Part shown: positions 4,048-40,468 of the stretch, in pieces
Layout of the letters: each line of letters opens with the position of its first letter
How positions within the stretch are numbered: position 1 is the first letter of the stretch
IMG/VR virus record: IMGVR_UViG_3300046642_001019
Coordinates: 1 to 40,664 of that record
Reading direction: 5' to 3' (one strand)
DNA: 40,664 nucleotides
DNA from: a virus
The notes under the pieces: model-generated
The model's database searches: none
What the model was told of the DNA's origin: nothing
Seen by the model: only the letters and a program-made list of their open reading frames with translations
Made by a program: the position numbers and the translations under genes

Positions 4048-5939
4048 CGACCACCGAGACCGACGCGCTCGTCCTCGCTGCCCTGAACTACGCCGAGATC
4101 GGCTGGCCGGTGGTCCCGCTGCACACGCCGGTGGACGGGGTGTGCGACTGCCCCAAGCGCGCCCGCTGCGAGAGTCCGGGAAAACATCCGCGGACGCTGC
4201 ACGGCCTCGACGACGCGAGTTGCGACGAGGCAACCATCCGTCGCTGGTGGACGATGTTTCCGCGGGCCAACATCGGCATCGACCTGGCGCGCGCCGGCCT
4301 GGTCGACATCGCGCCGGACTCGCTCGAGTGGTTCGCCGAGTTCACCGCGCGCGGCTTGCCGTCGACGCCGCGGTTTGCCTCGGGCGGCGGCGAGGGCCAC
4401 GCGCATCACCTGTACCGACGGCCGGAGCACTGCGAGGTGTATCGCGACTGCCACACCGGGGAGTACGACGTGCTGAGCGCCGGCTACGCGGTGATGCCGC
4501 CGAGCCTGCACCAGAGCGGGCGTCTGTACACGTGGCTCGAGCCCGCCAGCGGCATCCTGCTGGAGACGGCCAGGAAGATGGCGCCGGAGTGGGGTGTGGC
4601 GATGCTGGCGCGCCACCGACGGCCGATCGCGGCGCCGCAGGCTGACGACGAGGACGCGCCACCGGTGGTGCTGTCGCTCGAAGGCATGGAGCGCTGGTCG
4701 GGGCGGGTCTATGACCGTCGGCTGAACGGACACGTCGATCGCAGCCACTCGCTGTGGTCGCTGGCGGTGCGCCTGCTCGAGGCGGGCTGTCGGCCGTCGT
4801 TCGTCGAGGAGCTGCTCGCCGAGCGCGACGTGGCCCTCGGCTGGGAGAAGTTTTCGAAGCGCGGCGACGCCGCCGAGCGGTATCGCATCATCACCGCGGC
4901 GGCGGTAGCTGGCCAGGGACCGGGGCGGATTCGGCTCAAGCCGAAGGCGCCAGCGCAGCCGGTCGCGACACGCTATGGCTGGATGACGGCCCAGGAGATC
5001 CGGGAAGTCGAAGAAGAAGACATCGCGTGGTACGCGACCGGGTTCGTGGGCAATGGGCTGATCACGCTGCTTGACGGCAAGGCAAAGCTTGCAGGCAAGA
5101 CGACGCTGTTGCTTGCCCTGGTGCATGCGGTGCTGCACGGCGAAGAGTTCCTGGGGCAGCGGACCACCTACAGCCCCGTGGTGTATCTGACCGAGCAATC
5201 TGGACCGAGCTTCCGCCGCAATCTGTCGCGTGCGGGTTTGCTTGATCGGGCAGATCTCCACGTGTTGATGTGGAGTCGTATCGAAAATCCCGAGTGGCCG
5301 GCGATCGTGGCTGAAGCGTGCGTACAGGCACGAGGCTGGGGTGCTGGCGTGATGATTATCGATACGTTGCCGCAGTTCGCGTCACTTCGCGGCGAGGACG
5401 AGAACCGGTCCGGGGCGATTCTGGAGATGATGAAGCCGCTCCAGGCAGCAATCGGGGGTGGACTCGCGGTGCTGGCGAGCCGTCATGATCGCAAGAGTGG
5501 TGGCGAGGTAGGTGACAGCGGGCGTGGGTCAGGGGCTGGCACCGGGATCGCCGACATCATCCTGCACGTGCAGCGGTTGCCTGGCAACGAGGTAGGCAAG
5601 GAGCGCCAGCGGTTGATGGATACGGTCAGTCGGCTCGAGGAGACGCCCGAGCGGATGCTGATCGAGCTCGAGCCAGGCACCGCGGAGACGCCGAACGTGT
5701 TCCGACTCGTGGGCGATGCGCGAAGGGTACAGCACGAGGAGATGCGCATCGAGATTCTGGCGGCGCTGCCGACCGCTGATCACCGGGAGGACGCGCCAGA
5801 ATTCGAAGAGCTCCGCAAAGACCTGGGTATCCGTGCGTTGGAATTGCGGCGTGAACTGAACGGTCTGATCGTCCAGGGGCTGGCGGCGTACTTTGGACGG
5901 CCGCGGCGCTACTACCAGCCGGCCCGTGACGATGACTGA
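4044..5939 (+). CDS. Bifunctional primase-polymerase / RepA-like helicase
   Basis: 631 aa from the ATG at 4044 (ATGA overlap). Residues 1-200 are a Prim-Pol domain: G-W-P-V-V-P-L at 20-26, a C-D-C...C...G-K-H-P-R zinc-knuckle-like stretch at 34-50, the acidic motif V-D88-I-A-P-D92, and S-G-G-G-E-G-H-A-H-H at 113-122. After a helical linker, residues about 330-560 form a RecA-fold AAA_25/RepA-type ATPase, with Walker A around D344-G-K...A-G-K352-T and Walker B V-M-I-I-D440. A winged-helix-like tail follows. Such fusions act as combined primase and replicative helicase in phages and plasmids. This is the core replication protein and no separate polymerase is seen, so elongation probably relies on the host. 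Confidence 0.88.
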   Translation: MTTTETDALVLAALNYAEIGWPVVPLHTPVDGVCDCPKRARCESPGKHPRTLHGLDDASCDEATIRRWWTMFPRANIGIDLARAGLVDIAPDSLEWFAEFTARGLPSTPRFASGGGEGHAHHLYRRPEHCEVYRDCHTGEYDVLSAGYAVMPPSLHQSGRLYTWLEPASGILLETARKMAPEWGVAMLARHRRPIAAPQADDEDAPPVVLSLEGMERWSGRVYDRRLNGHVDRSHSLWSLAVRLLEAGCRPSFVEELLAERDVALGWEKFSKRGDAAERYRIITAAAVAGQGPGRIRLKPKAPAQPVATRYGWMTAQEIREVEEEDIAWYATGFVGNGLITLLDGKAKLAGKTTLLLALVHAVLHGEEFLGQRTTYSPVVYLTEQSGPSFRRNLSRAGLLDRADLHVLMWSRIENPEWPAIVAEACVQARGWGAGVMIIDTLPQFASLRGEDENRSGAILEMMKPLQAAIGGGLAVLASRHDRKSGGEVGDSGRGSGAGTGIADIILHVQRLPGNEVGKERQRLMDTVSRLEETPERMLIELEPGTAETPNVFRLVGDARRVQHEEMRIEILAALPTADHREDAPEFEELRKDLGIRALELRRELNGLIVQGLAAYFGRPRRYYQPARDDD

Positions 5940-6016: not shown

Positions 6017-6303
6017 GTGGCAAAGCAGGCGTGGATTTACGAAGCGAAAGGGTGGGTGCTGAGGACGCTTCAGCCCGTGGACGAGCCGACGTTCCGTCGT
6101 CTGGGCTGGTGGCGGATCGTCGAAACCGGGAAGTTCGTGAACGAGCAGGACGAGATGAGGGGTACTGGCCCCCGAAAGTGATCTGGGGTCGCGAGCAGGG
6201 CTGGCTGAACGTGCGCGACCCGTGGGGGCAGTGGCACTCGATCCTGGCCAGGGAAGCGCCGACGGGCTATGCGCGGCTGGCCACGCTGGCGAAGCGCCGA
6301 TGA
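6017..6303 (+). CDS. Hypothetical Trp-rich protein split across two frames (apparent -1 shift)
   Basis: From the GTG at 6017 (ribosome site GGGGGAA at 6006) one frame gives M-A-K-Q-A-W-I-Y-E...F-V-N-E-Q-D-E-M and stops at 6179-6181 after an unlikely tail. The -1 frame continues naturally as G-Y-W-P-P-K-V-I-W-G-R-E-Q-G-W...L-A-K-R-R to 6303. The change falls near A-GGG-GT at about 6157-6163. A programmed slip, a sequence error or a natural lesion could explain it. Alternatively these are two coupled genes, 6017-6181 and 6178-6303, because GTGA at 6178-6181 is a possible restart. No function is recognised. The stop overlaps the next start. Confidence 0.5.
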
Positions 6304-7037
6304 GCCAGATGCCGCACTGGAGCGCCACCCGCTTCATGCTCTTCGAACAATGCCCGATGCTCTTCAAAGCCCATTACGTCGACGGCGAAGCGACGGAGGT
6401 GACCGAAGCCATGGCGTTCGGCTCTGCCGTCCACCACGGGCTGGAAGCGCATTACCAGGGTCAGGACGGGGTACGCGCCTTCAGAGACATGTGGAAGGGC
6501 TATCCCACGGAAAACCGTGGGCTGACCGCGGTCGGCCTCGAGCTGCTCGAGCAAACCTTCGCCCTCAAGCTCGAGGGCATTCCGGAGCGCGGTTTCAGCA
6601 TCGACACCGAGAACGAGCTCGGCGCCCCGATCGTGGGCGCGATCGACCTGTGGGGCGCCGACGGCGTCATCTACGATTTTAAGACGACCCGCGGGGCGTG
6701 GTCGCAGGAACGAGCGCAGCGCGAGCAGTGGCAGCCGATCCTGTACACGTGGGCGCGGTGGAACGCCGAGCCCGAGTACGCGGCCGCCTTCGAGTACATC
6801 GTCCTGGATCGCGTCAGGGGCACGCTCAGTCGTTTCCGACGGGAGTGGACCCCGCTGGAGTGGCTCGAGCAGATCAACGGGCTGTGGCTGCGCATGCAGC
6901 GTATTTCGGTGGACGTGGCCCAGAACCGGTACGTGTGCTCTGGCGACCACACGAATTGTCCGGAGTGTGGGGCAAAGTGGGAGCACGGCCACGAGTGCGA
7001 ACTGCAGGCGCAGCGGAGGATTCGACGGCGTGCCTGA
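6300..7037 (+). CDS. Cas4/RecB-like PD-(D/E)xK nuclease
   Basis: 245 aa, ATGA overlap start. The N-terminus has the RecB-family S-A-T-R-F-M-L-F-E-Q-C18-P pattern. The core shows H45/H46, G-A-I-D116, Y-D126-F-K128-T-T and the Q145-P-I-L-Y149-T-W motif, the order typical of Cas4/AddB/RecB nucleases. A C-terminal cluster C213-x6-C220-x2-C223 together with C18 could bind an iron-sulfur cluster, as in Cas4 and AddB, although C233 is also near. Phage members act in recombination or DNA-end processing. It pairs logically with the VRR-NUC and Prim-Pol genes. Confidence 0.82.
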   Translation: MSQMPHWSATRFMLFEQCPMLFKAHYVDGEATEVTEAMAFGSAVHHGLEAHYQGQDGVRAFRDMWKGYPTENRGLTAVGLELLEQTFALKLEGIPERGFSIDTENELGAPIVGAIDLWGADGVIYDFKTTRGAWSQERAQREQWQPILYTWARWNAEPEYAAAFEYIVLDRVRGTLSRFRREWTPLEWLEQINGLWLRMQRISVDVAQNRYVCSGDHTNCPECGAKWEHGHECELQAQRRIRRRA

Positions 7038-7125
7038 AGCGCTCGCGTGGTTTCTGGGGGGCTGGCTGGTGGCGAGCCTGGTACTGGCCGCGGTGCTGTC
7101 GCGCTGGTTGCGGAGGATGCGATGA
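7030..7125 (+). CDS. Tiny membrane protein
   Basis: 31 aa, GTG at 7030 overlapping the end of the nuclease gene by 8 nt and ending in ATGA with the next gene. It is one hydrophobic helix (A-W-F-L-G-G-W-L-V-A-S-L-V-L-A-A-V-L) followed by R-W-L-R-R-M-R, a topology that places the basic end in the cytoplasm. Real small phage membrane proteins look like this. The role is unknown. Confidence 0.5.
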   Translation: MPEALAWFLGGWLVASLVLAAVLSRWLRRMR

Positions 7126-7319
7126 CGGACTACGCGATCGTGCAGCTACGCGAGCTGGCGAAAAAGATGATCTTCTTAGAGCACGCGGCCAGGCAGGCGC
7201 TCGAGCGAGGCGATCAGGTAGCGGCGCGGCAGTTGTGGTTCGAGCGGGTACAGATCACGAGCTTGCGGTCCGCCAAACTGCGGGAGTACTGGAACACAAC
7301 AACGCCCTCGGTGGACTGA
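7122..7319 (+). CDS. Hypothetical helical protein
   Basis: 65 aa from the ATG at 7122 (ATGA overlap). Two amphipathic helices are rich in Glu, Arg and Leu (L-R-E-L-A-K-K-M-I-F-L-E-H-A-A-R and Q-L-W-F-E-R-V-Q-I). It is the last gene of the plus-strand early operon. Its 3' end runs into the terminator hairpin shared with the convergent operon. No family is recognised. Confidence 0.6.
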   Translation: MTDYAIVQLRELAKKMIFLEHAARQALERGDQVAARQLWFERVQITSLRSAKLREYWNTTTPSVD

Positions 7320-7367: not shown

Positions 7368-7577
7368 TCAGGGGTGGTCGACCTGTTCGTAGGCATGGAC
7401 CAGGCTGGTCAGAACCTGATCGTCGAAGACACCCAGTCGGCCGAGCGCTCGGAACTCGAGGTATTTAGCCTTGGCGTAGTCGTCCCAGTCCCAGCCGAGT
7501 GCCTCGGCAAACTGGTGGCCGCTGAGCATGTTGGCCGCGTGTTGCAGCCGTCGCAATTGTGGGATGAGTTCATCCAT
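7368..7577 (-). CDS. Hypothetical protein, last gene of minus operon
   Basis: 69 aa, all helical (I-P-Q-L-R-R-L-Q-H-A-A-N-M-L then A-L-G-W-D-W-D-D-Y-A-K-A-K). Its start overlaps the end of the helix-turn-helix gene by 8 nt, so the two are probably co-translated and may interact. No catalytic motif is seen. Confidence 0.6.
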   Translation of the reverse strand: MDELIPQLRRLQHAANMLSGHQFAEALGWDWDDYAKAKYLEFRALGRLGVFDDQVLTSLVHAYEQVDHP

Positions 7578-7908
7578 GAGTGGGCGTATCTACCGTTCGT
7601 TCAGTCTGAGACTCGAGGCCTTTGAGGGCGAGGTGGAGATAGGGAGGGATGGCCTGCGCGCCGGTTTCCCAGCGCTGGACCGTGATCCAGTACACCCCGA
7701 GGACACTGGCCAGGGCTTTGAGGGTGAGCCCGTGGCTACGGCGCCAGGCGCGGAGATCGAACGCGGGCACTTGCCGGGAGTGGAGCGTTGCCACATACGC
7801 ACTCGCGGCCGAAGCCCCGGACGCACCGGGGCCGAACTGTTTGACGACAGAACCGCTGTCGTCCAGGACGCGCCACCCGGAAGGGTGACGCTCGGTGACG
7901 TAGGTCAT
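7570..7908 (-). CDS. Helix-turn-helix transcriptional regulator
   Basis: 112 aa. The N-terminal 45 residues look beta-rich (W-R-V-L-D-D-S-G-S-V-V-K-Q-F). Residues about 52-98 form an XRE-type helix-turn-helix: L-R-A-W-R-R-S-H-G-L-T-L-K-A-L-A, then V-Y-W-I-T-V-Q-R-W-E-T-G recognition helix and I-P-P-Y-L-H-L-A-L. This matches the DNA-binding half of antitoxin or Cro/cI-like regulators. It lies in a minus-strand operon opposite the early genes, so a repressor or late-switch role is reasonable. The start is set by an ATGA overlap. Confidence 0.8.
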   Translation of the reverse strand: MTYVTERHPSGWRVLDDSGSVVKQFGPGASGASAASAYVATLHSRQVPAFDLRAWRRSHGLTLKALASVLGVYWITVQRWETGAQAIPPYLHLALKGLESQTERTVDTPTHG

Positions 7909-10439: not shown

Positions 10440-10616
10440 ATGCCGGCGTTGAGAGCGTTGCTGGTGCTGTTGCACGATGTGGGTGCGCAGTTAGCGATGT
10501 CGTCAGATCGGGTACAGCACTACTGGGGGTTGCACCTGCTCGAGGACTGGCGTGGATTGGAGCTGCTGGCGCATCGGGCTGAGGTAGACACGGTGGTGAA
10601 GGATGCCGCCGAGTAA
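10440..10616 (+). CDS. Hypothetical protein upstream of terL
   Basis: 58 aa, ATG at 10440. It is leucine-rich and helical (L-R-A-L-L-V-L-L-H-D-V-G, then Y-W-G-L-H-L-L-E-D-W-R-G-L-E-L-L-A-H-R). It overlaps the terL start by 14 nt, which argues for translational coupling. No family is recognised. Because it is short and lacks a strong ribosome site, it is a moderate call. Confidence 0.5.
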   Translation: MPALRALLVLLHDVGAQLAMSSDRVQHYWGLHLLEDWRGLELLAHRAEVDTVVKDAAE

Positions 10617-11949
10617 CAAACTGAGCCAGGTGGGCAGGCCTGCGACGGTAGAGTGGGGGACCGAATCGTCACCGGATGAGGCGCCCTATCAACCTCACGG
10701 GGCGGCTCTGGAATTGTTCAGAAGTCGGCGTCGTGAGGTCTTACTTTCGGGGCCTGCCGGGACGGGAAAAAGCCGGGCCTGTTTAGAGAAATTGAACCTG
10801 ATTGCGATGCAGAAACCGATCCGTGCGGCTATCGTCCGGAAGACCCGGAAAAGCCTCACGCAGAGTGCCATGGCGACCCTGGAAAACAAGGTTCTTCCCA
10901 GGCCGAATCAGGTCCGATTTCACGAGGGAGATCAGGAATATCGCTACCCCAGTGGGGCACGAATTATGGTCGCTGGACTGGACGATCCGGAGAAAATCGG
11001 GTCCACGGAATTCGACGTCGTGTACGTCCAGGAAGCCACGGAATTAGACGAGGACGACTGGGCGATGCTCCTCCGTGGGCTCAGAAATGGGGTGCTGAGT
11101 TACCGGCAAATTGTGGCCGATTGCAACCCCAGTTCTCCCGATCACTGGCTGAAACAACGCTGTAATGCCGGCGAGTGCGAGCTGCTCGAAAGCACCCACG
11201 AAGACAACCCGATGCTCTATCAGCAGGGAGAGTGGACCGAGTTCGGTAAGGAGTACATCGCCACCCTCGATAGTCTGACCGGCTTTCTGTACCAGCGCCT
11301 CAGGCTCGGGCAGTGGGTGGCGCCCCAGGGGCAATTCTTCGTCGAGTGGGATCCCTCGCTGCACATCTGCCCGAGGTTCGAGATCCCCGACGACTGGCCG
11401 AGGTGGACCTCCACGGACTACGGCTTCAGTGCCCCGTTCACGTGTCTCTGGTTCACCCGTTGTCCGGAAGATAAGCGCATCTACGTCTATCGCGAGCTGT
11501 ACGGCAGTGGCTACCGCGACGAGGTGCAGGCGTACAAGATTCTCGAGGCCAGCGGCGACGAGCGCATCGTCCAGAACATTCTGGATCCCGCTATGTTCAA
11601 TCCTCGAACGGAAGCACAGCGCCCCTCGATCGCCGCGGTCTACTGGACGTGTGGCGTGCGGCCCCTCTTTCCCGGCATGAATTCCCGGATTCCGGGCTGG
11701 GCCCTCACCCGACGAGCGCTGGCCCACGACGACGGGCCGCCACGGCTGCGGATCCTGTCGGGAGCCGCTCCGAATCTGGTGCGGACCTTGCCCAGCATGG
11801 TCGTCGATCCGCTCGACGGCGAAGACCTCGCCGATACCCTCGGCAGTACCAAAACCGAAGACCACAGCGTCGATGCCCTGCGCTACGGCCTCGCCTACGA
11901 AGCCCAGCCCCCGCGTCCCACTACCCCCCGGCCTCTCCGATTCGGCTAG
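10603..11949 (+). CDS. terL: Terminase large subunit
   Basis: 448 aa. The ATPase half has Walker A G50-P-A-G-T-G-K-S57 and Walker B V-V-Y-V-Q-E-A (about 140-146), where the usual Asp before Glu is Gln. The RNase-H-like nuclease half begins with T-S-T-D272-Y-G-F-S and ends with D420-H-S-V-D424-A-L-R-Y-G. This enzyme cuts and pumps DNA into the prohead. Length and motif order are normal for phage TerL. It directly follows the small leucine-rich gene and precedes the RAMP-like gene. Confidence 0.93.
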   Translation: MPPSNKLSQVGRPATVEWGTESSPDEAPYQPHGAALELFRSRRREVLLSGPAGTGKSRACLEKLNLIAMQKPIRAAIVRKTRKSLTQSAMATLENKVLPRPNQVRFHEGDQEYRYPSGARIMVAGLDDPEKIGSTEFDVVYVQEATELDEDDWAMLLRGLRNGVLSYRQIVADCNPSSPDHWLKQRCNAGECELLESTHEDNPMLYQQGEWTEFGKEYIATLDSLTGFLYQRLRLGQWVAPQGQFFVEWDPSLHICPRFEIPDDWPRWTSTDYGFSAPFTCLWFTRCPEDKRIYVYRELYGSGYRDEVQAYKILEASGDERIVQNILDPAMFNPRTEAQRPSIAAVYWTCGVRPLFPGMNSRIPGWALTRRALAHDDGPPRLRILSGAAPNLVRTLPSMVVDPLDGEDLADTLGSTKTEDHSVDALRYGLAYEAQPPRPTTPRPLRFG

Positions 11950-11950
11950 T

Positions 11951-11977
11951 TGCTACACGTATAGATGGCGTGTAGCA
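11951..11977. promoter_or_regulatory. 9-bp inverted repeat before the RAMP-like gene
   Basis: TGCTACACG (11951-11959) and CGTGTAGCA (11969-11977) are perfect arms around TATAGATGG. The element ends 7 nt before the GTG start at 11985. It can be an operator of about 27 bp or an RNA hairpin controlling ribosome access. It suggests that the RAMP/array unit is regulated apart from terL. Confidence 0.55.
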
Positions 11978-11984
11978 TCGGAAT

Positions 11985-12572
11985 GTGCGTATAGACATTA
12001 CGTTGACGGGGACGACGCCGTTGCTGATGCACAACGTGCAGTTGGCGGATCCGGACAATGCCTTTACGAAGGCGATCGCGGCGATCAATGCCAAGGCGTC
12101 CGAGATGACCGAGGACGATCGACGGGAGAAAGCGAAGCTGCAGTGGTTTGGCGGGTTGTACATCGGCCGCAACGGCCATGCGGGACAGCCGGTCATGCCG
12201 ACGGCAAACTTGCGGCGCTGTTTTCGTGACGCGGGCGGGGCGACGCGCGAAGGCAAGAAGATCCTGCGGGCGATTATCCCGTTCGAGCTCGAAGTCCCGC
12301 TGCTCTATGACGGACCGACCGACATCGAGCAGTTGTTCAAACTCCCCCAGTTCGCCTTCACCACCATGGTGGGGATCAATCGCGGCAAGGTCCAGGGCAC
12401 CCGCCCGCAGTTCCCGCAGTGGCAGGTGCGCGCTCAGTTCGAGTTGATCACCGAAGTGCTGGACTACGCCAAATTCGTCACCATCGTTCAGCGCGCCGGA
12501 ATTTCGGAAGGCCTGGGTGACAATCGCGTCAATGGCTACGGCCGCTTCACGGCCGCGGTTAAGCAAGCATGA
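11985..12572 (+). CDS. Cas7/RAMP-like protein of phage, candidate repeat-RNA binder
   Basis: 195 aa, GTG start. The N-terminal strand I-D-I-T-L-T-G-T-T-P-L-L-M-H resembles the first strand of RAMP ferredoxin folds. Residues 69-84 (P-V-M-P-T-A-N-L-R-R-C-F-R-D-A-G) match the Cas7-group P-x-x-P-G-S-S-L-K-G-x-x-R pattern with T-A-N replacing G-S-S. Near the C-terminus, E175-G-L-G-D-N-R-V-N-G-Y-G-R-F188 is a glycine-rich loop of the G-x-G-x5-G-x-G type used by Cas5/6/7 proteins to hold RNA. No CRISPR array or other Cas gene is present. The stop is followed after 4 nt by the GGCNN arrays. I infer a nucleic-acid-binding protein that works with the arrays; activity is unknown. The RAMP assignment is by motif and is not proven. 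Confidence 0.6.
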   Translation: MRIDITLTGTTPLLMHNVQLADPDNAFTKAIAAINAKASEMTEDDRREKAKLQWFGGLYIGRNGHAGQPVMPTANLRRCFRDAGGATREGKKILRAIIPFELEVPLLYDGPTDIEQLFKLPQFAFTTMVGINRGKVQGTRPQFPQWQVRAQFELITEVLDYAKFVTIVQRAGISEGLGDNRVNGYGRFTAAVKQA

Positions 12573-12576
12573 GCAC

Positions 12577-12661
12577 GGCCGGGCTGGGCTTGGCAAGGCA
12601 TGGCCTGGCGGGGCTCGGCAGGGCATGGCACGGCTGGGCTAGGCTTGGCAAGGCAAGGCAG
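12577..12661 (+). repeat. GGCNN array 1 (17 units)
   Basis: The NN series is CG TG TT AA AT CT GG TC AG AT AC TG TA TT AA AA AG. It begins 4 nt after the RAMP-like stop and runs into GG-TTTTC and a GTG at 12669. Confidence 0.9.
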
Positions 12662-12682
12662 GGTTTTCGTGATTCGGTCCGC

Positions 12683-12737
12683 GGCCGGGCATGGCACGGC
12701 GTGGCTCGGCTGGGCGAGGCGCGGCATGGCAGGGCTT
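12683..12737 (+). repeat. GGCNN array 2 (11 units)
   Basis: The NN series is CG AT AC GT TC TG GA GC AT AG TT. It ends in a T run and a GTG at 12741. Confidence 0.9.
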
Positions 12738-12753
12738 TTTGTGGACAACGCAC

Positions 12754-12818
12754 GGCGAGGCCGGGCAGGGCCAGGCTCGGCGCGGCATGGCTTGGCCGGG
12801 CGCGGCAGGGCAGGGCAG
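12754..12818 (+). repeat. GGCNN array 3 (13 units)
   Basis: The NN series is GA CG AG CA TC GC AT TT CG GC AG AG AG. It runs into GG-TTTTT and the ATG at 12826 that opens the downstream gene. Confidence 0.9.
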
Positions 12819-12825
12819 GGTTTTT

Positions 12826-13428
12826 ATGACTCGATCCCAGAACACGGCTGGGCGTGGCCAAGCACGGCAAGGCTCGGCAGGGCTTGGCGTGGCAGGGCAA
12901 GGCTTCCCGATACCAGAACCGGAGCGCGAACGGTTCGTTCCCCGACGTGCCGATGGACGCGCCTTCTGGCGCGTCCTGTACGAGTACCTGCTCGCGGTTG
13001 CGCCAGGCGAAGTCATTCCGTACGCCGATCTGCTGGCGTTGCTCGAGATGGATACCTCGGCCAAACCGCTGCTGTACGCCAGCATGTCCCGCGCGCTTCG
13101 CGAGTTACGCAAAAGCGACGCGAAACGCGAGGTCGCCACGTTGCGCGGTGTCGGCTACCGCGTCCTGCACGCCAACGAGCACATCACGAAAGCCGAATTG
13201 CACAAGGATCGCGCCGAACGTCAGCTCAAGATCGCCAACGATGTCATCGATTCCACTGACCTCGCCGCGCTCACAGCCAGCGAACGCGATCTGTGGTCGC
13301 AGGTCAGGCGTGGCATGGTCCTGCTGTATGCCGCGGTGAGTACCCACGAGCTCGCTCTGTCTCGTCACGAAGAGCTCATTCACTCCCTCCAAGAACGCGT
13401 AGATACGCTCGAGCAGTCGCCGCCGTAA
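12826..13428 (+). CDS. Winged-helix-like/coiled-coil protein following the arrays
   Basis: 200 aa if started at the ATG at 12826, whose CAGGG-TTTTT spacing looks like a ribosome site. The first about 28 residues then come from spacer 3 and array 4 and are low-complexity Gly/Ala/Arg. The conserved-looking part starts near residue 30 (P-E-P-E-R-E-R-F). Residues about 45-120 form a winged-helix-like domain: F-W-R-V-L-Y-E-Y-L-L, P-G-E-V-I-P-Y-A-D-L-L-A-L-L, L-L-Y-A-S-M-S-R-A-L-R-E-L-R and the wing R-G-V-G-Y-R-V-L. A charged coiled-coil tail follows. No normal start lies between array 4 and the domain. A DNA-binding partner or regulator of the RAMP/array unit is my inference. Confidence 0.6.
   Translation: MTRSQNTAGRGQARQGSAGLGVAGQGFPIPEPERERFVPRRADGRAFWRVLYEYLLAVAPGEVIPYADLLALLEMDTSAKPLLYASMSRALRELRKSDAKREVATLRGVGYRVLHANEHITKAELHKDRAERQLKIANDVIDSTDLAALTASERDLWSQVRRGMVLLYAAVSTHELALSRHEELIHSLQERVDTLEQSPP
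12846..12905 (+). repeat. GGCNN array 4 (12 units, one degenerate)
   Basis: The NN series is TG GT CA AC AA TC AG TT GT AG AA TT; the fourth unit begins with A instead of G. The 60-nt length is a multiple of three and keeps the frame from the ATG at 12826 open. Confidence 0.88.
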
Positions 13429-13440
13429 ACTCTGCGTATC

Positions 13441-15567
13441 TTGGCTACACTCACCCGTTCGTCCGGTCCGGCGGGGTGGGGTAAGTCCGCGTCCGCGGAA
13501 GAGACCATGCAGCAGCTCACGTGCGAGCTCGCCGACCAGTTGCAGCGCGACTTCCACGATCGCGACGTCCTGTACCGCGACATCGACGCCACCCTGTTTT
13601 CGAATTTCCCGATCGAGATCCCCGAGGCCTACAGGAAGACTGCGGTGGAGGTCCGCGCTCCACTGGCTCTGCACATCGCCCAGAACGTGGCCGCCGCCCT
13701 GAGCGTGAACGCCCCCACGGTGGGGTTCCGACCCGTCGGCTTCGGCGACGTCTACCAGGAGAACTCCACGAGACGAGAGCGTTTCTTCGAAGCAAGCTGG
13801 CAGCGCCAGGAACAGGAAGCCCGACGGCAGCTCTCCCGCCTCTTCATGTGGTCCCTGGCCGTTAAAGGCGAGGGAATCTTAAAAACCCTGGAAAGAAGCG
13901 CCGCGGCGTGGAGCACGTACGCGCTCGACTCCGAGACGTACCAGAAAGAGCTCGAGCAGGACGGCCTCGACCAGCACGCCCAGGACATGGCCTACGACAA
14001 GCACACCGAGAACCTGAAGCTCGGCCTGCCCTACCCGATCGCCACTACCGACGTCCCACCCGAATCCTTCTATTACACGCGCAACGAGAACGGCTACACG
14101 TCGGTGGTGGAGATCAAGGACGTGCCCTACCTCGAAGCTCTCGAGCGTTTCGGCGCCGAGCTCGACTCCTCGGGCAATGTCCGCGCTCCGTCAAAGGACC
14201 GCAGCTTCGATCCGCAGGCAGCCCAGCTCGCGCGGCCCGAGTGGAGCCACATCATGAAGACGGCCGGCTCCACCACCTTGAAATGCATCGAGGCCTGGGA
14301 CGAGCACGTGCAGGTGGTGTGCCTGTCGGGACCGAATCAGATCGCGAAGGGCAACGACCAGTCCACCCTGTGCAAGGTCACCCAGCACAGCTACGGCGAT
14401 CCTCACCTGCACACGCTGCGAGGCCCGTACTTCCACGCCCTCGGTATCACCACCGCCAGCAGACTCCCGGAGCACGCCGGCCTGAGCGTCCTGTATGGCT
14501 ACCTGCAGCTCTTCCGGTTGATCGACTCTCTGCTCACCATGCAGGGCAACAGCGCCTACCTGACCGGCTTCCCGGCCTGGAAGCAGACCACCAACCCGAA
14601 CCAGATCCCCGGTTTGCCGTACGGGGCCAGCGGTCAGGAGCAGGCCGTGCAGGACCGCCTCGAGCCCGGCAAGCTCTACCCCTTCGACGTCACTCCCGTC
14701 GACCAGCCCCAGTCCGGCCAGGACGCGTCGAAGCTGCTCACCAACGTGCAGCAGTTGGTCGAACGGGCTATGCCGGCCGCCTTCAGCGGCGCGGTGGGCG
14801 CCGACCAGTCGGGCTACGCCCTCAACCAGGCCGCCTACCTCGCCGGGCTCGCCTTCAATCCCATCGTCTCCAACGCTGAGGTCGCCCTCGCCGAGAGGAC
14901 CGGCTTCGAGTCGTGGCTGATCGAGAACCGGATCGCCGAGTCGGTCTATGCCTGGGGCGAACAGCCCGGCAAAACCGGTGGTCGAGGCGCCGGCCAGACC
15001 AAAGGCTCCTGGCTGCGCATGGACCCCGCCGACCTCGAGGGGATTCACCGCTACACCGTGCGGTTGAGCCCGTCTACCCCGAGCAACGAGATCATCCAGA
15101 TCCGCTCCATCGGCGAGAAGATGCAGCTCAAGTTGATCACCTACGAGGACGCGGTCACCGAGGCCGGCGGCAACCCCGACGAGGTGGAACGCTCGTGGCT
15201 GCTGCACGATCTCAAACAATCCCCTGAGATCCAGCAGCAGTTGAAGGACGCCGTCTTCCAGAAACTCGGCACCATCCAGGCCAAACGCGTCAACGCCGCG
15301 GGCAACCCCAGCCCGGCCGAGATGGCCGGTCTGCAGACCGGTGCCGTCACCAGCGTGCCGGGGACGCCCGGTACTCCGCCGTCGGGTCCCATGCCTGGCG
15401 GCATGCCCCCGAACCCGGTGCCGTCGCCCGGAGCCGGCCTGCCTCTCGCACCACCCCCTCCCGGCGGTCAACCAGGGCTGGCCATGCCTCCCGGCGGCGC
15501 GCCGGCCGGCAACGTCGTCGTGCCTAACCCGCCGCCCAACATGCTTCCGATAGGCCCGGGGCGTTAG
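13441..15567 (+). CDS. Portal protein
   Basis: 708 aa from a TTG. The ATG at 13507 has a better ribosome site (GGAAGAG) and would give 686 aa. The protein has the portal layout: an N-terminal helical wing (V-E-V-R-A-P-L-A-L-H-I-A-Q-N-V-A-A-A-L), a middle stem region, a glutamine-rich crown, and a Pro/Gly-rich tail from about residue 625. The position right after terminase and before scaffold and capsid is classic. Portals form the dodecameric DNA entry vertex. The Pro-rich tail is longer than usual. Confidence 0.8.
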   Translation: MATLTRSSGPAGWGKSASAEETMQQLTCELADQLQRDFHDRDVLYRDIDATLFSNFPIEIPEAYRKTAVEVRAPLALHIAQNVAAALSVNAPTVGFRPVGFGDVYQENSTRRERFFEASWQRQEQEARRQLSRLFMWSLAVKGEGILKTLERSAAAWSTYALDSETYQKELEQDGLDQHAQDMAYDKHTENLKLGLPYPIATTDVPPESFYYTRNENGYTSVVEIKDVPYLEALERFGAELDSSGNVRAPSKDRSFDPQAAQLARPEWSHIMKTAGSTTLKCIEAWDEHVQVVCLSGPNQIAKGNDQSTLCKVTQHSYGDPHLHTLRGPYFHALGITTASRLPEHAGLSVLYGYLQLFRLIDSLLTMQGNSAYLTGFPAWKQTTNPNQIPGLPYGASGQEQAVQDRLEPGKLYPFDVTPVDQPQSGQDASKLLTNVQQLVERAMPAAFSGAVGADQSGYALNQAAYLAGLAFNPIVSNAEVALAERTGFESWLIENRIAESVYAWGEQPGKTGGRGAGQTKGSWLRMDPADLEGIHRYTVRLSPSTPSNEIIQIRSIGEKMQLKLITYEDAVTEAGGNPDEVERSWLLHDLKQSPEIQQQLKDAVFQKLGTIQAKRVNAAGNPSPAEMAGLQTGAVTSVPGTPGTPPSGPMPGGMPPNPVPSPGAGLPLAPPPPGGQPGLAMPPGGAPAGNVVVPNPPPNMLPIGPGR

Positions 15568-17765: not shown

Positions 17766-20700
17766 ATGCCTGGATTACCGGACGTCCCGCAGCAGGACTG
17801 GCAGAGCTTTTCGGCCGACCGCTGGTTCAAACAATCCACCGACCGCATCAACAGCATCGGCGCCATGCCCGCCGCGCCGGGCCTGGGTTTTCTGACGTCC
17901 TCATCGAATCGCATCAACAGCCTGCCGCAGATCACGGGACCCCAGATTCAGATCCCGCCGATCCAGATCCCGCAGCCGACGCTCCCCCCGCTGCCGACAC
18001 CGGCTCCGACACCGGCTCCAGTCCCGGCGCCGGAGCCGGCTCCCCTGCCGTCGCCGCTGCCGGCACCCGCGCCGAGCCTGCCATCGGCTCCCTCGGGGCC
18101 GATCGGCCTGCCTCCGTCGTCGACACCCTTCCCGCAGCAGGGGCCGCCACCGGATCAGGGACCGCCGCAGGGCTTGCCGACCCCGGTCACGCCGCAGACG
18201 CCGGTCACGCCCGGTCCGGCGCAGCCGTCCCTACCCACCCCACCCGTCATGGCGCCGCCAGCGCCTCCCCAACCACCGGTGGAGAGTCCGTTCGGCGGCG
18301 AGGCCACCGGTCCGTTCGCCCCCGGCACGCCCGAGAAATACGTCCCGCCGGGCACCGGCGCTCCGGCAGCACCTCCCTCCCTGGGGACGATCGATAGCTC
18401 CACGCCTACGGCATTTGCCAGGAGCTTCGCGCCGTATGCGCAGTACGCCGCGAAGCAACTGGGCGTCGACCCGAGCTGGGTCACGGCCATGGCCGCCTCC
18501 GAGTCGAACTACGGCAAGGCCGGCGGCAACGAGCTCTTCGGCATCAAGGCGCTGCCCGGGCAAGCGGGCACCAGCATGATGACGCACGAGGGCGAATACG
18601 GCGGGACGAACATGAACCAGACGTTCGCCAGCTACGACTCGCCACTCGATGCGGTCAACGCGTACGTCAACCTGCTCAAGAATCACTACCAGGGCGCGCT
18701 CGGCGCGCCGACGCTGGACGACTTCGTTCACGGACTCAAGCAGGGCGGCTATTTCACCGCAGCCGAGGCCGAGTACCGCGGCATTCTGGATGCGATCGCG
18801 AACCGCGGTGACATCCAGCAGGGACTCCAGCAGGGACTCGGCAACACCCAGTCTGTCACACCGTCGTCACAAACAGGAGCAGGACCGGCGCCGACGGCGA
18901 TGGCGCAGAGCCAGTTCGGCGACCCGCAGCTCACCAGCGACGAAGCCTACGCGGCCTGCGGCCCGGCTGCCGCGGTCAGGTTCGCCCAGGCCTACGGCCG
19001 CAACCCCACCTTAAGAGAGGCGACCGACCTGGCGAAAACCGTGGGCTGGACGCCCGGTTCGGGCATGGCCGGCATCGCCTCCGAGCAGCAGTTGCTCGAC
19101 AAGATGGGCGTGCCCACCCGACTGGTGGGGGCGAACTCGGACGCGATCGCCCGCGAAGCCCAGACCGGCAACCCCGTCACTATCAGCACCAGCGGCCACT
19201 ACTTCTATGCCGACGGCTACAACCCGCAGACCCAGCAGTTCCACGTCGGACGGAGCGGTCTCGACCTGAAGAACGGCAGCGAGTGGATGACGCTGTCGCA
19301 GATGCAGAGCCTGATGGGTCCCGTCCAGGGGGCGCTGTTCGCCAATAACCCGAGCGTGCCGGCCACCTCCACCAGCGCGCCGCTGACCGACCACCTCGAC
19401 CAGACGCGTCAGGCGCTGAGTGCCGACCTGACCGGCACGCCCATCCCGAAGCAGGCGATGACCGACTTCGGCCGCAGTCCGGATCCCGCGCTGCAACAGC
19501 TCGACCAGGCCGTGCAGACGGCGAACCGGCCAGCATCCCCGCAACAGCGCCCCGGCTACCTGTCGGTCTTCGACCAGGCCCCGTCGACGGCAGCCTCGAG
19601 CGGCAATCCCCTCGACAACCTCGGCAGCCTGATCGGCAACGCCATCCAGAGCGCCTTGCAGAGCGCGCTCGGTGGCCCCGGCGGCTTCGGTCCAAAGGGC
19701 TCGGGCAACCAGCAGGATCAGCAGCAACCCGCCGAGCCCGCTCCAACAGACGTGGGGTCCCGTGCGCGGCAGATGATCGAGCAGATCCAGACCCTGCCCG
19801 GTGGACGGAAAGTCAGCGACTTCACCGGCGTGCCGGACCTGCTGCCGCCGGACCTGAAGAACATGTCGATCGCCGACGCGCTCAAGGAAGCTGTGGACCG
19901 CGCCGGCGCGACGGCCATGAACCTGCCGCGGCCGAGCATGGGGCCGGGCGGTCTCGGGATCTTCGATCCCCGCCTCGGCAACGACCCGCGCATGGACATC
20001 CCGGACATGATCGAGCCCATCGGCCAGGCTCTCCACGGGCTCGGCGACGTCACAGGACTCAGTCGCCTGCTCGAGCGCGGCGCACCCGAACGTGCCGCGG
20101 GCACCCTCGATCAGGCATTCGAACGCGAGGCCGGAGCACAGGCTCGTGGGCTGACCGGTGGCATTACCCGCTCGGCACTCGACGACCTGGGCGGCGGCGT
20201 TGCCCGAGCCGTCAGCGACGCTGGCGCGAGAACCGCTGCCCCGTCCCGACTCACCACCGAAGCCCAGCAACTGATCGACGCCGCGGATCGCGGAGGCGTG
20301 CCGGGCTTTATCAGCAACAACGTCCGCCGCATCGCCGAGGAGAATGGCGTGCGGATCACCCCGGACATGACGCCCAACGACGTGATCGACGCGCTGCGGT
20401 CGGCGGGACAACCCTCCGCGGCCGAGACCGCGTTCAGTGGCGCACGCGCTGCTCCGGGCGAATCGGTCACGGCCACGACTCCCAGCGCGACGGTCACTGC
20501 GCGCCAAACGCTGTCGTCGAACGTGTTCAGCGGCGGCAACAGCCCCATCCAGCAACTCACCACCCAGGGGCAGCAGAGCGTGGCCAGCGGTCTCAGCCGC
20601 ACCCGTGCCCAGCAGGCCTGGGACACGTCGGTGCGCAACCTGACCGACAGCGGCACCGACCTGAACAACATCGAAAAAGCCCTGGCTCAGAAACTGGGCC

Positions 20701-23700
20701 GCCCGCTCACCGACACCGAGCGTGTCGGCTTGCTCGCGCGCGTGGACCCCACCCACCAGGCTGAGAACATGGTGGAGCACGCCATCGGGCCGCAACTGCG
20801 CGCCATCGGCGACCAAGCGCTCCCGGACTTCTATAACCTCGTCGAGCATCGTACCAACCAGTCCGTCGCCGAAGGCCTGGCCAAACAGGTCGAGCAGCAA
20901 GCGCTCGAGGCCGGCATCGCCCCGAGCACCGAGCAACGGCTCACCACCGCGATGAAGAACTGGAACACGGCCCAGAACGTCCTCGACGAGGCGCAGGCTC
21001 AGGCCGCCAATCCCCGCACGCGCGGACAGATCAACCTGAACACGGCACAGGCCCGTGTCGACGAAGCGCGGACGCAGCTCGAGGCCGCGGCGGAGGTGGC
21101 GCGCCAGGCGAACGCGGACGCCGCGCGTGAACAGGTCATGACCGCGCCGGGCTCGAAAGTCACCACCCTGCCCGAGTACCGCGACCTGAGTATCGCCGAG
21201 GACAACGCCAAACGCCTGAACCAGCAGTACGACCGGCTGTACGCCCGCAACCCCGACAGCCCGTACCTCGAGACGCTGGCCAGGCAGGTGGGGCGCGCCG
21301 AGGACAAAGCGAGCCAGTTGCGATCCGCTATGGGCGAATCGTCAGCGACCAGAGGCGCCGCGATCGAAGGGCGCGCGCAGACCGCCGCCGACCGGGCGGC
21401 CGCGCAACAGCCGCGCTACAACCCCACCCCCGAGTACGCGGGCGCCAGCGTCAAACTCCGCTACGAACAGCAGAACCTCGAGCGGCTCCAGGCCGCCCAG
21501 GCACGCGGCCAGCGGGGCCTGACGAATGACGTAGCGGTTGCCGAGAACCGCGTTAGGAAAGCCTTCGCCGACGTGCAGCAGGCACACGCGGACGTGCCTG
21601 CCGCGGCTCGAGCGCAGGGATTGGCCCAGCTCCACGGCCGCGAGTTCGCCGGCCCCAATGGCGAGACCTGGCACTACGACGACATCATGCAGCACCTCGC
21701 CGATCTCCAGGACAAGTACCGCGACCAGCCCAGAAAATGGCAGCAGATGCAGGACGGACTGACGGCCCTGCAGGACTTCCGCAAGCAGATGCTGCAGGAG
21801 AAGGTCGACCACGGACTGCTGCCGCAGGCCAAGATGGACGGCTTGCTCAAAACCTACGACTTCTGGACCCCCACCCACATGACCGACTTCATGTCGGACG
21901 AGCGTCCGGGCATGGGCCTGCAGCGCGGCAGTTCGTTCAACGTCGCCGACCCGGGGCTGCACACCTACACGCCAGAGGGCTCGTCGCTGCAGCACGAGAA
22001 CCACGTCGCCGCGATGATCCGCGAGGCCTACGCGCACAAGTCGGGCATCGCTAAAAACGACGTCACCTCCGCGCTGGTCAAGGGCTTCGGTAACGACAGC
22101 ACCGTCATGCGCAGGATCGCCGACAACGTCAGGGAGTACGTCGACTCCGGCGGCAAGAACGGTCCATTGCTGCACCCCGACTACCCACTCAGGGGCGACG
22201 AGCAGAAGGTCACGGGCATCATCAACGGCGATCGCAAGGACTACGTCACCAGCAACACGCTGCTGAAGACCGCGCTCGACCAGATGGCCCAGACCGGCGA
22301 CCCCAGCGTGATGCAGAAGATCCTGCAGGCGCCCGCGAAAATCGTCCGGGCGACGGCCACCGAGCGCAACCCCGCGTTCCAGGGGGTCAACCTCGTGCGT
22401 GACGCGTACACCTATGCGGCGCGGCAGACGGCCGCGGGTGGAGCTCGCGGCATCCCCGGCAATCTGGTGAGCACCGGCCTCCACCTCGGGCCGGCGGCGG
22501 TCACCGCGGCGATGACCCCGGACGACGATCCGAACCGCAACCAGAAGATCGCCGCCGCGCTGGCGCTCGGCATGGGCACGCGGATCGGCATCGGCAAAAA
22601 CCTGGGCCTGGGGCCGAGCGCGGCGCGGGCGTATCTGCTTGCCTTTGCCGATGCGATGCGCGGCACGGGCAGCGGGCGGATGACCGGCGAAGGCGTGCGC
22701 GCGCTCGAGGCTGCCGGCGGAGGCATGGGCAGTGGCGGCGCCGGCGCCAGGATGACCCAGTCCCAGGCTCAGGAGCAGCTCCGCAAGTTGACCCGCCAGA
22801 ACGCGGTGAGCGTGCGGAACGTCCTGACCGTCAATGGCCGAGGCGACCTGAAGCAATTGCTCAATGACGTGGCCGCGTTCGGCTGGGTCAAGGCGCTCGG
22901 CAACCGCTTCGAGCAAGTGCCGCGGGTTGCCGCGCGCGAGATGGAGCTGGCGCGCGGCAGCAGTCCGCTCGAAGCCATGCGGCAGGCACGCGAGGGCACG
23001 ACCGACTTCAGTCGCGGTGGCCGTCTCAGCAAGGAGATCAACCGCTACGTGCCCTTCTTTAATGTGGGCACGCAGGCGCCCGCGCAACTCGGACGTCTGC
23101 TCAAAGAGCATCCAGCGGGCGCGGCCTTCGCCGGATTGACGTTGCTCGGCGCGCCCTCGTCCGCGACCGAGGCATACAACTACTCCGACCCGCAACGCGC
23201 CAAAGACTACGAGGACGTGCCCGAGTACCTGAAGAAGCAGGGCATCGTCCTCATGGTGCCGGGCGAGGCGCCGCGTGACGCCAACGGCAACCGCAACCCG
23301 CAGAAGATTCTGATCCCCATCCCGAACGAGTTCATGCCGTTCGTCGAAGCTGGCCGCGAAGCGTTCCACCACATCCAGGACGTGCGCGGCGTGCCCGACC
23401 AGGGTAAGCCGCGGGATGTGGGAGAGCTGGCCTCGACGCTGACGCAGGAGCTCAGCCCGATCAACGCGGGCAGCCGCAACAGCGTGGCGAGCTCGGTCTA
23501 CGGCTTCGTCCCGCCAGGACCGGGCACCCTTGCCGAGCTGTCGGCGAACAAGGACTGGTATCGCGATAGCACGATCGCCAACAAGTTCTCGGACGAGAAC
23601 GCCTCGAGCCTGAGCAAAGCGGTGGCGCCCGCGCTCGAGGATGCCGTTACCCAATTACCGGGCATGTCGTCGGCGCGCGTGCGTCCGTCACAGGTCGACT

Positions 23701-24209
23701 TTGCGATCAAAGACCTCCTGAACGGGCTGGGCCAGCAGGGACTGAATCTGTCGGACTACCTCGCGCAACGGGCGCCGCGGGTACCCGGCACCGCGTCGGA
23801 ACTACCCGTGGTGGGGAGTCTGGCCAGCCGTTTCGTACGCGGCACCGGGGGCCAGCAGTGGCAGGACCTGACCACGCCCGATGCCATGATGGCACCCGAT
23901 GTTCGTCGGCAGATGCGCGCCCTCGGCGATACGTACGAGCCGAGCTCGGTCCCGTCCGACATCCAGAAGATCCCGCTGCGCCAGGAGGAGCAGGCCGAGT
24001 ACCAGCGCCTGACTAACCAGTACTTCGACCAGCAGATACGACGCTACATGGACCTGCACGCGTTCAGTAATCCAGCCGTGCGCGACTCGCTGCGGCAGCA
24101 GGCGATGACCGACGCGCGCGAACTGGCGGCTGCCCACGTCATGCGCCAGATTCGAGAGAGCGGTTCTAATCTGGCGCAGCGTTACCTGAAGCAGTCATCG
24201 GCAGCGTAG
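17766..24209 (+). CDS. Giant internal virion protein with glucosaminidase and C39-like peptidase domains, LPD38-like region
   Basis: 2147 aa. A Pro-rich stalk covers about 55-210. Residues about 213-340 form a glucosaminidase/FlgJ-type domain (V-D-P-S-W-V-T-A-M-A-A-S-E-S-N-Y-G-K with catalytic Glu, then N-E-L-F-G-I-K). Residues about 390-520 look like a C39/papain-like peptidase with A-C398-G-P-A-A-A-V and S-G-H478-Y-F-Y-A-D-G-Y-N. Long coiled-coil segments follow. From about 1530 to 1850 the sequence resembles LPD38 of large polyvalent proteins (E-R-N-P-A-F-Q-G-V-N-L-V-R-D, then R-Y-V-P-F-F-N and I-P-I-P-N-E-F-M-P-F). This fits an ejected core protein that opens the wall during DNA entry. 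Confidence 0.78.
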   Translation: MPGLPDVPQQDWQSFSADRWFKQSTDRINSIGAMPAAPGLGFLTSSSNRINSLPQITGPQIQIPPIQIPQPTLPPLPTPAPTPAPVPAPEPAPLPSPLPAPAPSLPSAPSGPIGLPPSSTPFPQQGPPPDQGPPQGLPTPVTPQTPVTPGPAQPSLPTPPVMAPPAPPQPPVESPFGGEATGPFAPGTPEKYVPPGTGAPAAPPSLGTIDSSTPTAFARSFAPYAQYAAKQLGVDPSWVTAMAASESNYGKAGGNELFGIKALPGQAGTSMMTHEGEYGGTNMNQTFASYDSPLDAVNAYVNLLKNHYQGALGAPTLDDFVHGLKQGGYFTAAEAEYRGILDAIANRGDIQQGLQQGLGNTQSVTPSSQTGAGPAPTAMAQSQFGDPQLTSDEAYAACGPAAAVRFAQAYGRNPTLREATDLAKTVGWTPGSGMAGIASEQQLLDKMGVPTRLVGANSDAIAREAQTGNPVTISTSGHYFYADGYNPQTQQFHVGRSGLDLKNGSEWMTLSQMQSLMGPVQGALFANNPSVPATSTSAPLTDHLDQTRQALSADLTGTPIPKQAMTDFGRSPDPALQQLDQAVQTANRPASPQQRPGYLSVFDQAPSTAASSGNPLDNLGSLIGNAIQSALQSALGGPGGFGPKGSGNQQDQQQPAEPAPTDVGSRARQMIEQIQTLPGGRKVSDFTGVPDLLPPDLKNMSIADALKEAVDRAGATAMNLPRPSMGPGGLGIFDPRLGNDPRMDIPDMIEPIGQALHGLGDVTGLSRLLERGAPERAAGTLDQAFEREAGAQARGLTGGITRSALDDLGGGVARAVSDAGARTAAPSRLTTEAQQLIDAADRGGVPGFISNNVRRIAEENGVRITPDMTPNDVIDALRSAGQPSAAETAFSGARAAPGESVTATTPSATVTARQTLSSNVFSGGNSPIQQLTTQGQQSVASGLSRTRAQQAWDTSVRNLTDSGTDLNNIEKALAQKLGRPLTDTERVGLLARVDPTHQAENMVEHAIGPQLRAIGDQALPDFYNLVEHRTNQSVAEGLAKQVEQQALEAGIAPSTEQRLTTAMKNWNTAQNVLDEAQAQAANPRTRGQINLNTAQARVDEARTQLEAAAEVARQANADAAREQVMTAPGSKVTTLPEYRDLSIAEDNAKRLNQQYDRLYARNPDSPYLETLARQVGRAEDKASQLRSAMGESSATRGAAIEGRAQTAADRAAAQQPRYNPTPEYAGASVKLRYEQQNLERLQAAQARGQRGLTNDVAVAENRVRKAFADVQQAHADVPAAARAQGLAQLHGREFAGPNGETWHYDDIMQHLADLQDKYRDQPRKWQQMQDGLTALQDFRKQMLQEKVDHGLLPQAKMDGLLKTYDFWTPTHMTDFMSDERPGMGLQRGSSFNVADPGLHTYTPEGSSLQHENHVAAMIREAYAHKSGIAKNDVTSALVKGFGNDSTVMRRIADNVREYVDSGGKNGPLLHPDYPLRGDEQKVTGIINGDRKDYVTSNTLLKTALDQMAQTGDPSVMQKILQAPAKIVRATATERNPAFQGVNLVRDAYTYAARQTAAGGARGIPGNLVSTGLHLGPAAVTAAMTPDDDPNRNQKIAAALALGMGTRIGIGKNLGLGPSAARAYLLAFADAMRGTGSGRMTGEGVRALEAAGGGMGSGGAGARMTQSQAQEQLRKLTRQNAVSVRNVLTVNGRGDLKQLLNDVAAFGWVKALGNRFEQVPRVAAREMELARGSSPLEAMRQAREGTTDFSRGGRLSKEINRYVPFFNVGTQAPAQLGRLLKEHPAGAAFAGLTLLGAPSSATEAYNYSDPQRAKDYEDVPEYLKKQGIVLMVPGEAPRDANGNRNPQKILIPIPNEFMPFVEAGREAFHHIQDVRGVPDQGKPRDVGELASTLTQELSPINAGSRNSVASSVYGFVPPGPGTLAELSANKDWYRDSTIANKFSDENASSLSKAVAPALEDAVTQLPGMSSARVRPSQVDFAIKDLLNGLGQQGLNLSDYLAQRAPRVPGTASELPVVGSLASRFVRGTGGQQWQDLTTPDAMMAPDVRRQMRALGDTYEPSSVPSDIQKIPLRQEEQAEYQRLTNQYFDQQIRRYMDLHAFSNPAVRDSLRQQAMTDARELAAAHVMRQIRESGSNLAQRYLKQSSAA

Positions 24210-40257: not shown

Positions 40258-40275
40258 AGTGGCAGTGTATCTATC

Positions 40276-40300
40276 ATCTTGATGCGTCACACATCAAGAT
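40276..40300. promoter_or_regulatory. Inverted repeat in the RHH leader
   Basis: ATCTTGATG and CATCAAGAT are perfect arms around CGTCACA. In copy A the left arm has a changed base. It overlaps a weak minus-strand promoter (TTGATG and TAGATA, 18 nt apart), so autorepression of the RHH gene is possible. Confidence 0.45.
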
Positions 40301-40468
40301 GTGGTAGTGTTTTTGATGACGTATCGACACGTCACCGTTATCGATACGAGAACTCTTGCTACCTGTGACGGGCCACGCTGACCCGAAACAGTGTAGAACA
40401 TATGCTCTAGACAAGACCGCGGGGAGAGGGGCCGCGGAGTCTGTTGCACGAGGTGAAGGGGTGCGGCA

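Follow-up and report, generated by a model that had tools for sequence, protein, structure and literature searches.

A 1.5-kb cassette in the genome of an uncultivated phage is a VIPR system, a kind that has already been described, and its first guide array appears to be aimed at the terminase gene of related phages. The best explanation of the locus as a whole, which is very probably correct, is that the RNAs of its arrays guide the protein Vipr, that guide 1 (g1) binds the terminase gene of related phages, and that guide 2 (g2) probably binds a gene in another group. What appears to be new here is that the natural target of a guide has been read out, with independent controls, and that it is an essential packaging gene of related phages.

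VIPR stands for Viral Interference Programmable Repeat. As far as a literature search shows, a single preprint describes it (bioRxiv 2026.04.26.720920 / PMC13142463, first posted 27 April 2026). It is a new class of RNA-guided DNA recognition. A VIPR system has a small RAMP protein called Vipr, a vap gene, and guide RNAs (vrRNAs) of alternating GGY and NN motifs (PMC13142463). The vrRNAs read double-stranded DNA as NNxNNxNN, with a skip of one nucleotide that is usually the wobble base, and competing phages are repressed (PMC13142463). The initial annotation took the present locus for a possible undescribed system, but the anatomy in the preprint is the same.

The Vipr of such systems is a single-domain RAMP with an RRM core, a thumb and a G-loop. 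The arrays hold 9–16 GGY/NN units and lie near vipr, on the same strand, and the guide RNA ends in a conserved structured 3' tail. There are types I to VII, and vap is DNA-binding in types II, VI and VII. Reference members are Escherichia phage SUSP1 and a Pseudomonas fulva prophage (type II). Array transcription, binding of vrRNA by Vipr, DNA binding and repression have been shown in these or other members (all PMC13142463).

The phage and its cassette

The window is the whole 40.7-kb virus record (40,664 nt), which comes from soil. Because it has genes for a terminase (Pfam Terminase_3, E 2.2e-16), an HK97-type capsid protein and a serine recombinase, its source is a tailed phage, and probably a temperate one. 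The host is likely actinobacterial. The closest terminase among cellular genomes is that of an Actinomycetota MAG (56% identity), and other Actinomycetota are prominent in the remaining matches.

The cassette sits between the terminase gene (10603–11949) and the portal gene (13441–15567). A 195-aa ORF (11985–12572) is followed by four GGCNN arrays and then by a winged-helix ORF that ends at 13428. The features are:

11400–11949, plus strand: C-terminal part of the terminase large subunit, a divergent allele (by amino acid identity) contiguous with the VIPR cassette
11556–11609, minus strand: the phage's own version of the g1 target site, central unit mismatched
11985–12572, plus strand: vipr, 195 aa, GTG start, Cas7/RAMP-fold protein (phrog_4652, AF2, Foldseek)
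12577–12661, plus strand: guide array 1 (g1), 17 GGCNN units; AGCAC just before them is possibly a degenerate unit
12662–12682, plus strand: short tail after array 1, GGTTTTCGTGATTCGGTCCGC, resembling the array 3 tail
12683–12737, plus strand: guide array 2 (g2), 11 GGCNN units, 9 of them before AG.TT tail units
12754–12818, plus strand: guide array 3 (g3), 13 GGCNN units, then the tail GGTTTTTATGACTCGATCCCAGAAC
12826–13428, plus strand: vap (Vap1-like), winged-helix DNA-binding domain and long helices (phrog_5926, homology, AF2)
12846–12905, plus strand: guide array 4 (g4), 12 units including one AGC, in frame within the probable vap ORF

A strong 10-bp hairpin (11951–11977, −16.9 kcal/mol, z −3.1) lies between the terminase stop and the vipr start. 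It could be a terminator, a processing site or a translational control. Elsewhere in the window, positions 1–405 and 40261–40664 form an imperfect direct terminal repeat (95.6% over 405 bp), which may be terminal redundancy, a duplicated segment or an attachment-site-like repeat of a temperate phage. The serine recombinase is at 37997–39847 on the minus strand. Further genes encode a PD-(D/E)XK (RecB/Cas4-like) nuclease (6222–7037), a small HTH protein with a weak likeness to Aca2/YdiL (7570–7908, minus strand), a polyvalent protein of 2,147 aa with glucosaminidase and LPD38 domains that is probably ejected (17766–24209) and, in the tail region, a collagen-like Gly-x-y repeat protein (30774–31526, Pfam Collagen, E 1e-19).

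The two proteins

The 195-aa protein carries PVMPTANLRRCFR and a C-terminal GLGDNRVNGYGRF loop, the Cas7-type motif and terminal G-rich loop first noticed from the letters alone. It belongs to phrog_4652 (PHROG profile search, E 7.8e-29) and has no match in Pfam or PADLOC. Its AlphaFold (AF2) model, built from 21 homologues, has a pLDDT of 95.1. All of the top 50 Foldseek matches to this model in the PDB are CRISPR class 1 subunits or complexes, the best being Csm3/Cas7-type chains (E 1.9e-6, TM about 0.5). Loop residues G172, G176, D179, R181 and G186 are conserved in the 21-sequence alignment. The predicted fold is thus that of a Cas7/Csm3-type RAMP, which bears out what the initial annotation had inferred from the motif.

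Homologues of Vipr were found in 126 phage records, at 28–38% identity. For phage wV8 it is 28.6% (E 3e-13). The carriers are Felixounavirus-type Escherichia coli and Salmonella phages, Gordonia phages Trine and MakoManhole, and Mycobacterium phages LittleE and prophiBWHA-1. Directly 3' of the vipr homologue, the records inspected have a smaller gene, and these partners are homologous to the one in the window. SUSP1 and wV8 have Vipr proteins that are 97.9% identical, and both the Vipr and the partner of wV8 are homologous to those in the window. One record stands apart: the Vipr gene at 91679–92263 of GU169904 (Staphylococcus phage SA1) and its counterpart in E. coli Felix-type phages are 99.5% identical, which suggests a mixed or mislabelled sequence.

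The partner gene, vap, is open from 12691 to 13428, through arrays 2–4. Its probable start is the ATG at 12826, after AGGGCAGGG, and the GTG at 12889 is also possible. Vap belongs to phrog_5926 (PHROG profile search, E 1.2e-6) and is homologous to wV8 gp94 and LittleE gp33. Its AF2 model (pLDDT 86.7) has a disordered N-terminus, a winged helix and then long helices, in line with the winged-helix/coiled-coil gene that had been seen after the arrays. The fold search is led, weakly, by OmpR/PhoB-type DNA-binding domains (E 0.04–0.06, probability 0.9–1.0).

The arrays

The first GGC is at 12577, four nucleotides past the vipr stop, as had been observed. The four arrays hold 52 exact GGCNN units; the initial annotation was right about the number of arrays and counted 53 units. 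Array 4 is composed of three units, one AGC unit and eight further units. In Markov-1 shuffles of the whole window, the longest GGCNN run is 4.

Of the 16 possible NN dinucleotides, 15 are seen. Because NN is nearly unrestricted, the fixed GGC with free NN is not a simple microsatellite and does not come from slippage of a single unit, and a simple microsatellite reading was rejected. A wider version of this idea takes the arrays for degenerate tandem repeats of an ordinary kind, or for low-complexity sequence that is translated as part of vap. Array 4 does keep to the reading frame of the vap ORF, as do its differences from a near relative (15 and 3 nt). Yet arrays 1–3, with their free NN and conserved GGC, lie outside the inferred vap gene, and a coding reading of arrays 2–4 leaves the information in NN unexplained. 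The N-terminal segment that array 4 encodes is predicted to be disordered (pLDDT about 53–64), and arrays are tied to vipr in many phages. This makes the repeat reading hardly credible, and the arrays are treated here as guide arrays of a VIPR system.

The tails are about 20–28 nt and do not fold strongly. Tails 1 and 3 have GGTTTTYRTGAYTCGRTCC and a weak 5-bp hairpin in common, with fold z-scores near or above zero. Rfam has no match in the locus. A CRISPR-array reading was rejected, given the 5-nt units of the window and PADLOC defence models that match none of the seven window proteins scanned, Vipr and its partner included. This agrees with the earlier observation that no Cas1/2, CRISPR or effector is near; the flanks are the terminase upstream and the portal downstream.

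Association of arrays with vipr

To gauge the association, 119 viral loci (L001–L119) were selected solely by nine consecutive GGCNN units. Vipr is encoded in 80 of the 119 (profile E<=1e-3), and in 78 of these 80 it is on the strand of the array. Of the 316 arrays on the same strand as Vipr, 313 are at most 2 kb from it. Another 234 loci, consisting of target matches and of portal, capsid and terminase relatives, served as comparison. In this set the sole contig with Vipr is that of L120/L194, a relative nearly identical to the window phage. There Vipr is the same (99% aa) and the arrays are partly rewritten and shortened, with array 1 largely in common with the window.

The association of homologues with GGCNN arrays proposed in the initial annotation therefore stands. 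The converse worry, that most genomes with a homologue would lack arrays, is not borne out in those checked: wV8 and SUSP1 have GGT-type arrays. A GGC-only scan had put wV8/Felix-type phages down as lacking arrays, which was rejected when a GGY rescan found their GGT arrays. No clear array of at least 8 units accompanies the prophiBWHA-1 homologue. As a control, the same array detector was run on SUSP1 (KT454805). Of the four GGY/NN arrays that it detects, one is upstream of vipr-vap and three are downstream, in agreement with the preprint (PMC13142463).

The same counts bear on whether the arrays could be DNA operators, bound by the winged-helix protein in autoregulation, with the RAMP unrelated. 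Vap is a predicted DNA-binding protein that adjoins the arrays, and a 5-bp period is half a helical turn. But the vap of the window's family is found in just 17 of the 119 array-selected loci, against 80 for vipr. In addition, the NN bases carry information that matches a gene of related phages, and arrays are transcribed in the characterised VIPR members (PMC13142463). Operators are thus a very improbable explanation when compared with guide RNAs.

The survey also yielded some further observations. The other 39 of L001–L119 (for example L036, L055, L056, L060 and L109) have long GGCNN arrays, of up to 43 units, where the profile detects no Vipr. These may have more divergent Vipr types, be cut off at the locus end, or be something else. 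Across L001–L128 there are arrays far beyond the published 9–16 units, with one run of 140 and several of 30–60. In Mycobacterium phage LittleE (L127, 3660–5300), a vipr-vap pair with GGCNN arrays on both sides lies antisense among tail genes, which from its sequence is another insertion into a structural operon. In wV8 (L128), the 'DR_4' repeats at 2750–2807 and 4143–4200 adjoin or overlap GGT-type guide arrays (2827, 4097) and are probably parts of vrRNA units. The GGCNN pattern alone works well for finding such systems in unannotated viral contigs.

The probable target of guide 1

Exact matches of 8 units were searched with the one-nucleotide-skip code over 2.9 million viral contigs. This gave 36 contigs for array 1, 11 for array 2 and 10 for array 3. 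Many of the array 1 matches are the terminase gene in relatives of the window phage. Every position was then scored in 157 relative loci (2.0 Mb).

The NN series of g1 reads AC CG TG TT AA AT CT GG TC AG AT AC and so on. In the terminase genes of L217, L229, L235 and L236, 22 of 24 bases agree with it over 12 units. A score of 22 is reached by none of 1,411 unit shuffles (max 18), none of 551 base shuffles (max 17) and none of 336 guides from unrelated phages (max 19). With a 0-nt skip g1 scores 15 and with a 2-nt skip 13; a 3-nt skip finds solely the array itself.

Written as codons, g1 is GTx ATx CTx GAx CCx AGx ATx TTx AAx CAx CGx GTx. The site in L217 is GTG GTG CTC GAC CCG AGC ATG TTC AAC CAG CGC GGC (VVLDPSMFNQRG). 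The skipped base is the codon wobble position throughout, and the register is identical in every terminase listed. The site covers VLDPSMFNQR, a nuclease motif of the terminase that lies in its C-terminal half, the RNaseH-like nuclease part of the protein (a weak Terminase_6C match). Because D328, P329, M331, F332 and N333 are invariant in an alignment of 10 terminases, g1 sits on a nearly immutable protein motif.

A full 18-unit target would encode ..FF(N/K)Y(H/Q)VILDPSMFNQRV. Units 13–18 match no terminase among those compared, so the exact natural target of g1 is unsampled. Two matches of the 3' half of g1 (L351, L352) and matches in AT-rich contigs (for example L144, L146 and L147) do not extend, and were rejected as chance.

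The other guides

Guide 2 matches at 9 of 9 units in five contigs (L184, L187, L188, L190 and L191). The site is antisense to a small ORF (IASQDTVIR), and again the wobble base is skipped. In four of the five, the gene beside the site is 65–68% identical to window 7122–7310, and the full L188 record has a terminase 55% identical to that of the window. The window itself does not have the small ORF. The probable g2 target is therefore a small gene of phages that have genes in common with the window phage. Its significance is moderate because chance 8-unit matches are expected at that database size.

No target was found for g3 and g4 in the viral sequence searched. The 8-unit matches of g3 (L173–L182) have nothing in common with the window phage and were rejected as chance. 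More generally, 343 other guides show no tendency to match their own flanking genes (35 observed, 38 expected). An all-versus-all guide search in 129 mixed loci (the first 1.1 Mb) gave 22 matches against 7–16 in shuffles. Because this is no clear excess, no general claim on targets is made from it.

These null results, together with the confinement of the g1 match to units 1–12, are what speaks for a locus that is a VIPR system whose match to the terminase is a coincidence, with its true targets elsewhere, for example in host genes. That reading is improbable, if less so than the two above. No shuffled or unrelated guide reaches the g1 score, in every relative the site falls in the same gene and the same register, where the skipped base is always the wobble base, and many exact matches in the 2.9-million-contig search turned out to be relatives of the window phage. 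The terminase of related phages remains the preferred target of g1.

Self and sisters

At the centre of the site, the phage's own terminase departs from g1 and most relatives by two bases, with GCT (Ala) in place of AGx (Ser). Overall it matches g1 at 17 of 24 bases. Its sisters (L195–L197 and L159) have the Ser form, with 8 contiguous perfect units and 18 of 24 overall. Since the totals are this close, discrimination between self and these sisters would rest on one central unit. Judged by sequence, the contrast with the sisters is real but small, while that with L217-type targets is large.

The N-terminal part of the sister terminases is 97–98% identical to that of the window. Towards the C-terminus, the identity of the window and L194 to the sisters drops to only 70%; the sisters there are 98–99% identical among themselves and 87–88% to the outgroup L198; the window is at 68% to L198. 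The sisters do not have the cassette, and have 64–188 bp between terminase and portal. Because of this, the divergent terminase end and the VIPR cassette are taken as one contiguous recombinant tract, which would fit a guide and a resistant allele having been acquired together. Other VIPR loci show no general adjacency of guide array and matched gene. Judging by a common IMG sample number, the VIPR carrier L120 probably co-occurs with a sister fragment that has the Ser site (L159/L223).

It is possible, though we would put it at rather less than even, that the cassette is a self-protected exclusion module, inserted with a foreign terminase C-terminal allele that lacks the LDPS site of its own g1. 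If true, the carrier would be immune and relatives with the common allele silenced, making this a poison-and-antidote element built from an RNA-guided repressor.

Proposed mechanism

Transcription of the arrays, downstream of vipr, would yield short guide RNAs. Each guide would be coated by Vipr, a minimal Cas7-type RAMP, at one subunit per GGCNN unit, such that the GGC bases are kept out of pairing and the NN pairs are presented. The NN pairs would then recognise double-stranded DNA as NNxNNxNN, one base being skipped per unit, and the bound DNA would be blocked for transcription, with Vap as a helper. Transcription, RNP formation, DNA binding and repression are all carried over from other VIPR members. 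One subunit per unit with NN exposed, as the initial annotation proposed, is near the published VIPR model, and the one-nucleotide-skip target match agrees with it.

In this phage, g1 would bind the terminase large-subunit gene of competing relatives across VLDPSMFNQR, where synonymous changes would give no escape because the wobble bases are skipped. Guide 2 would probably bind the small gene in another group of gene-sharing phages.

The locus supports the VIPR decoding rule independently, from uncultivated phages. It indicates that guides can be directed at the most conserved protein motif of a late, essential packaging gene, and it is a concrete example of a carrier whose copy of the targeted gene is a distinct allele that arose by recombination. 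Both the avoidance of self-targeting by VIPR and the choice of guide targets become experimentally approachable.

Comparison with known systems

Vipr shares its fold, and a conserved loop with a G-rich C-terminal motif, with Cas7 backbone subunits (Csm3, Cmr4, type VII Cas7). Unlike CRISPR-Cas class 1 systems, the window has no repeat-spacer CRISPR array, no multi-gene cas operon, and no Cas1/Cas2, Cas10 or other effector. Its repeat is 5 nt with 2 bases read, against the 6-nt period of CRISPR complexes. PHROG, where the two proteins belong to phrog_4652 (vipr) and phrog_5926 (vap), lists no function, array or RNA link.

With VIPR the locus has in common that it is phage-borne, with one small RAMP gene and one DNA-binding vap that encode homologous proteins. 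The G-loop RAMP is supported by AF2, Foldseek, alignment and SUSP1-type homology, and beside it lies a Vap with a winged helix, whose homologues include wV8 gp94 and the partners in other phages. Also in common are same-strand pentanucleotide GGY/NN arrays near vipr, here of 17, 11, 13 and 12 units, and, as sequence evidence from g1 and the relatives' terminase, a wobble-skipping target in competing phages that is read with a one-nucleotide skip and without contiguous pairing.

There are also differences. The units are GGC only, where SUSP1 has mostly GGT, and the tails are short compared to the longer pseudoknotted tails of SUSP1. The arrays lie between vipr and vap, whereas known VIPR arrays are outside the pair, and array 4 overlaps the vap reading frame, unlike in known members. 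The target is the terminase of related phages, versus a satellite or a lysogeny regulator in known VIPR, and the cassette is directly beside its own allele of the target gene, again unlike known members. The Vap1-like partner and the homology to SUSP1 suggest a place in VIPR type II or a neighbour of it.
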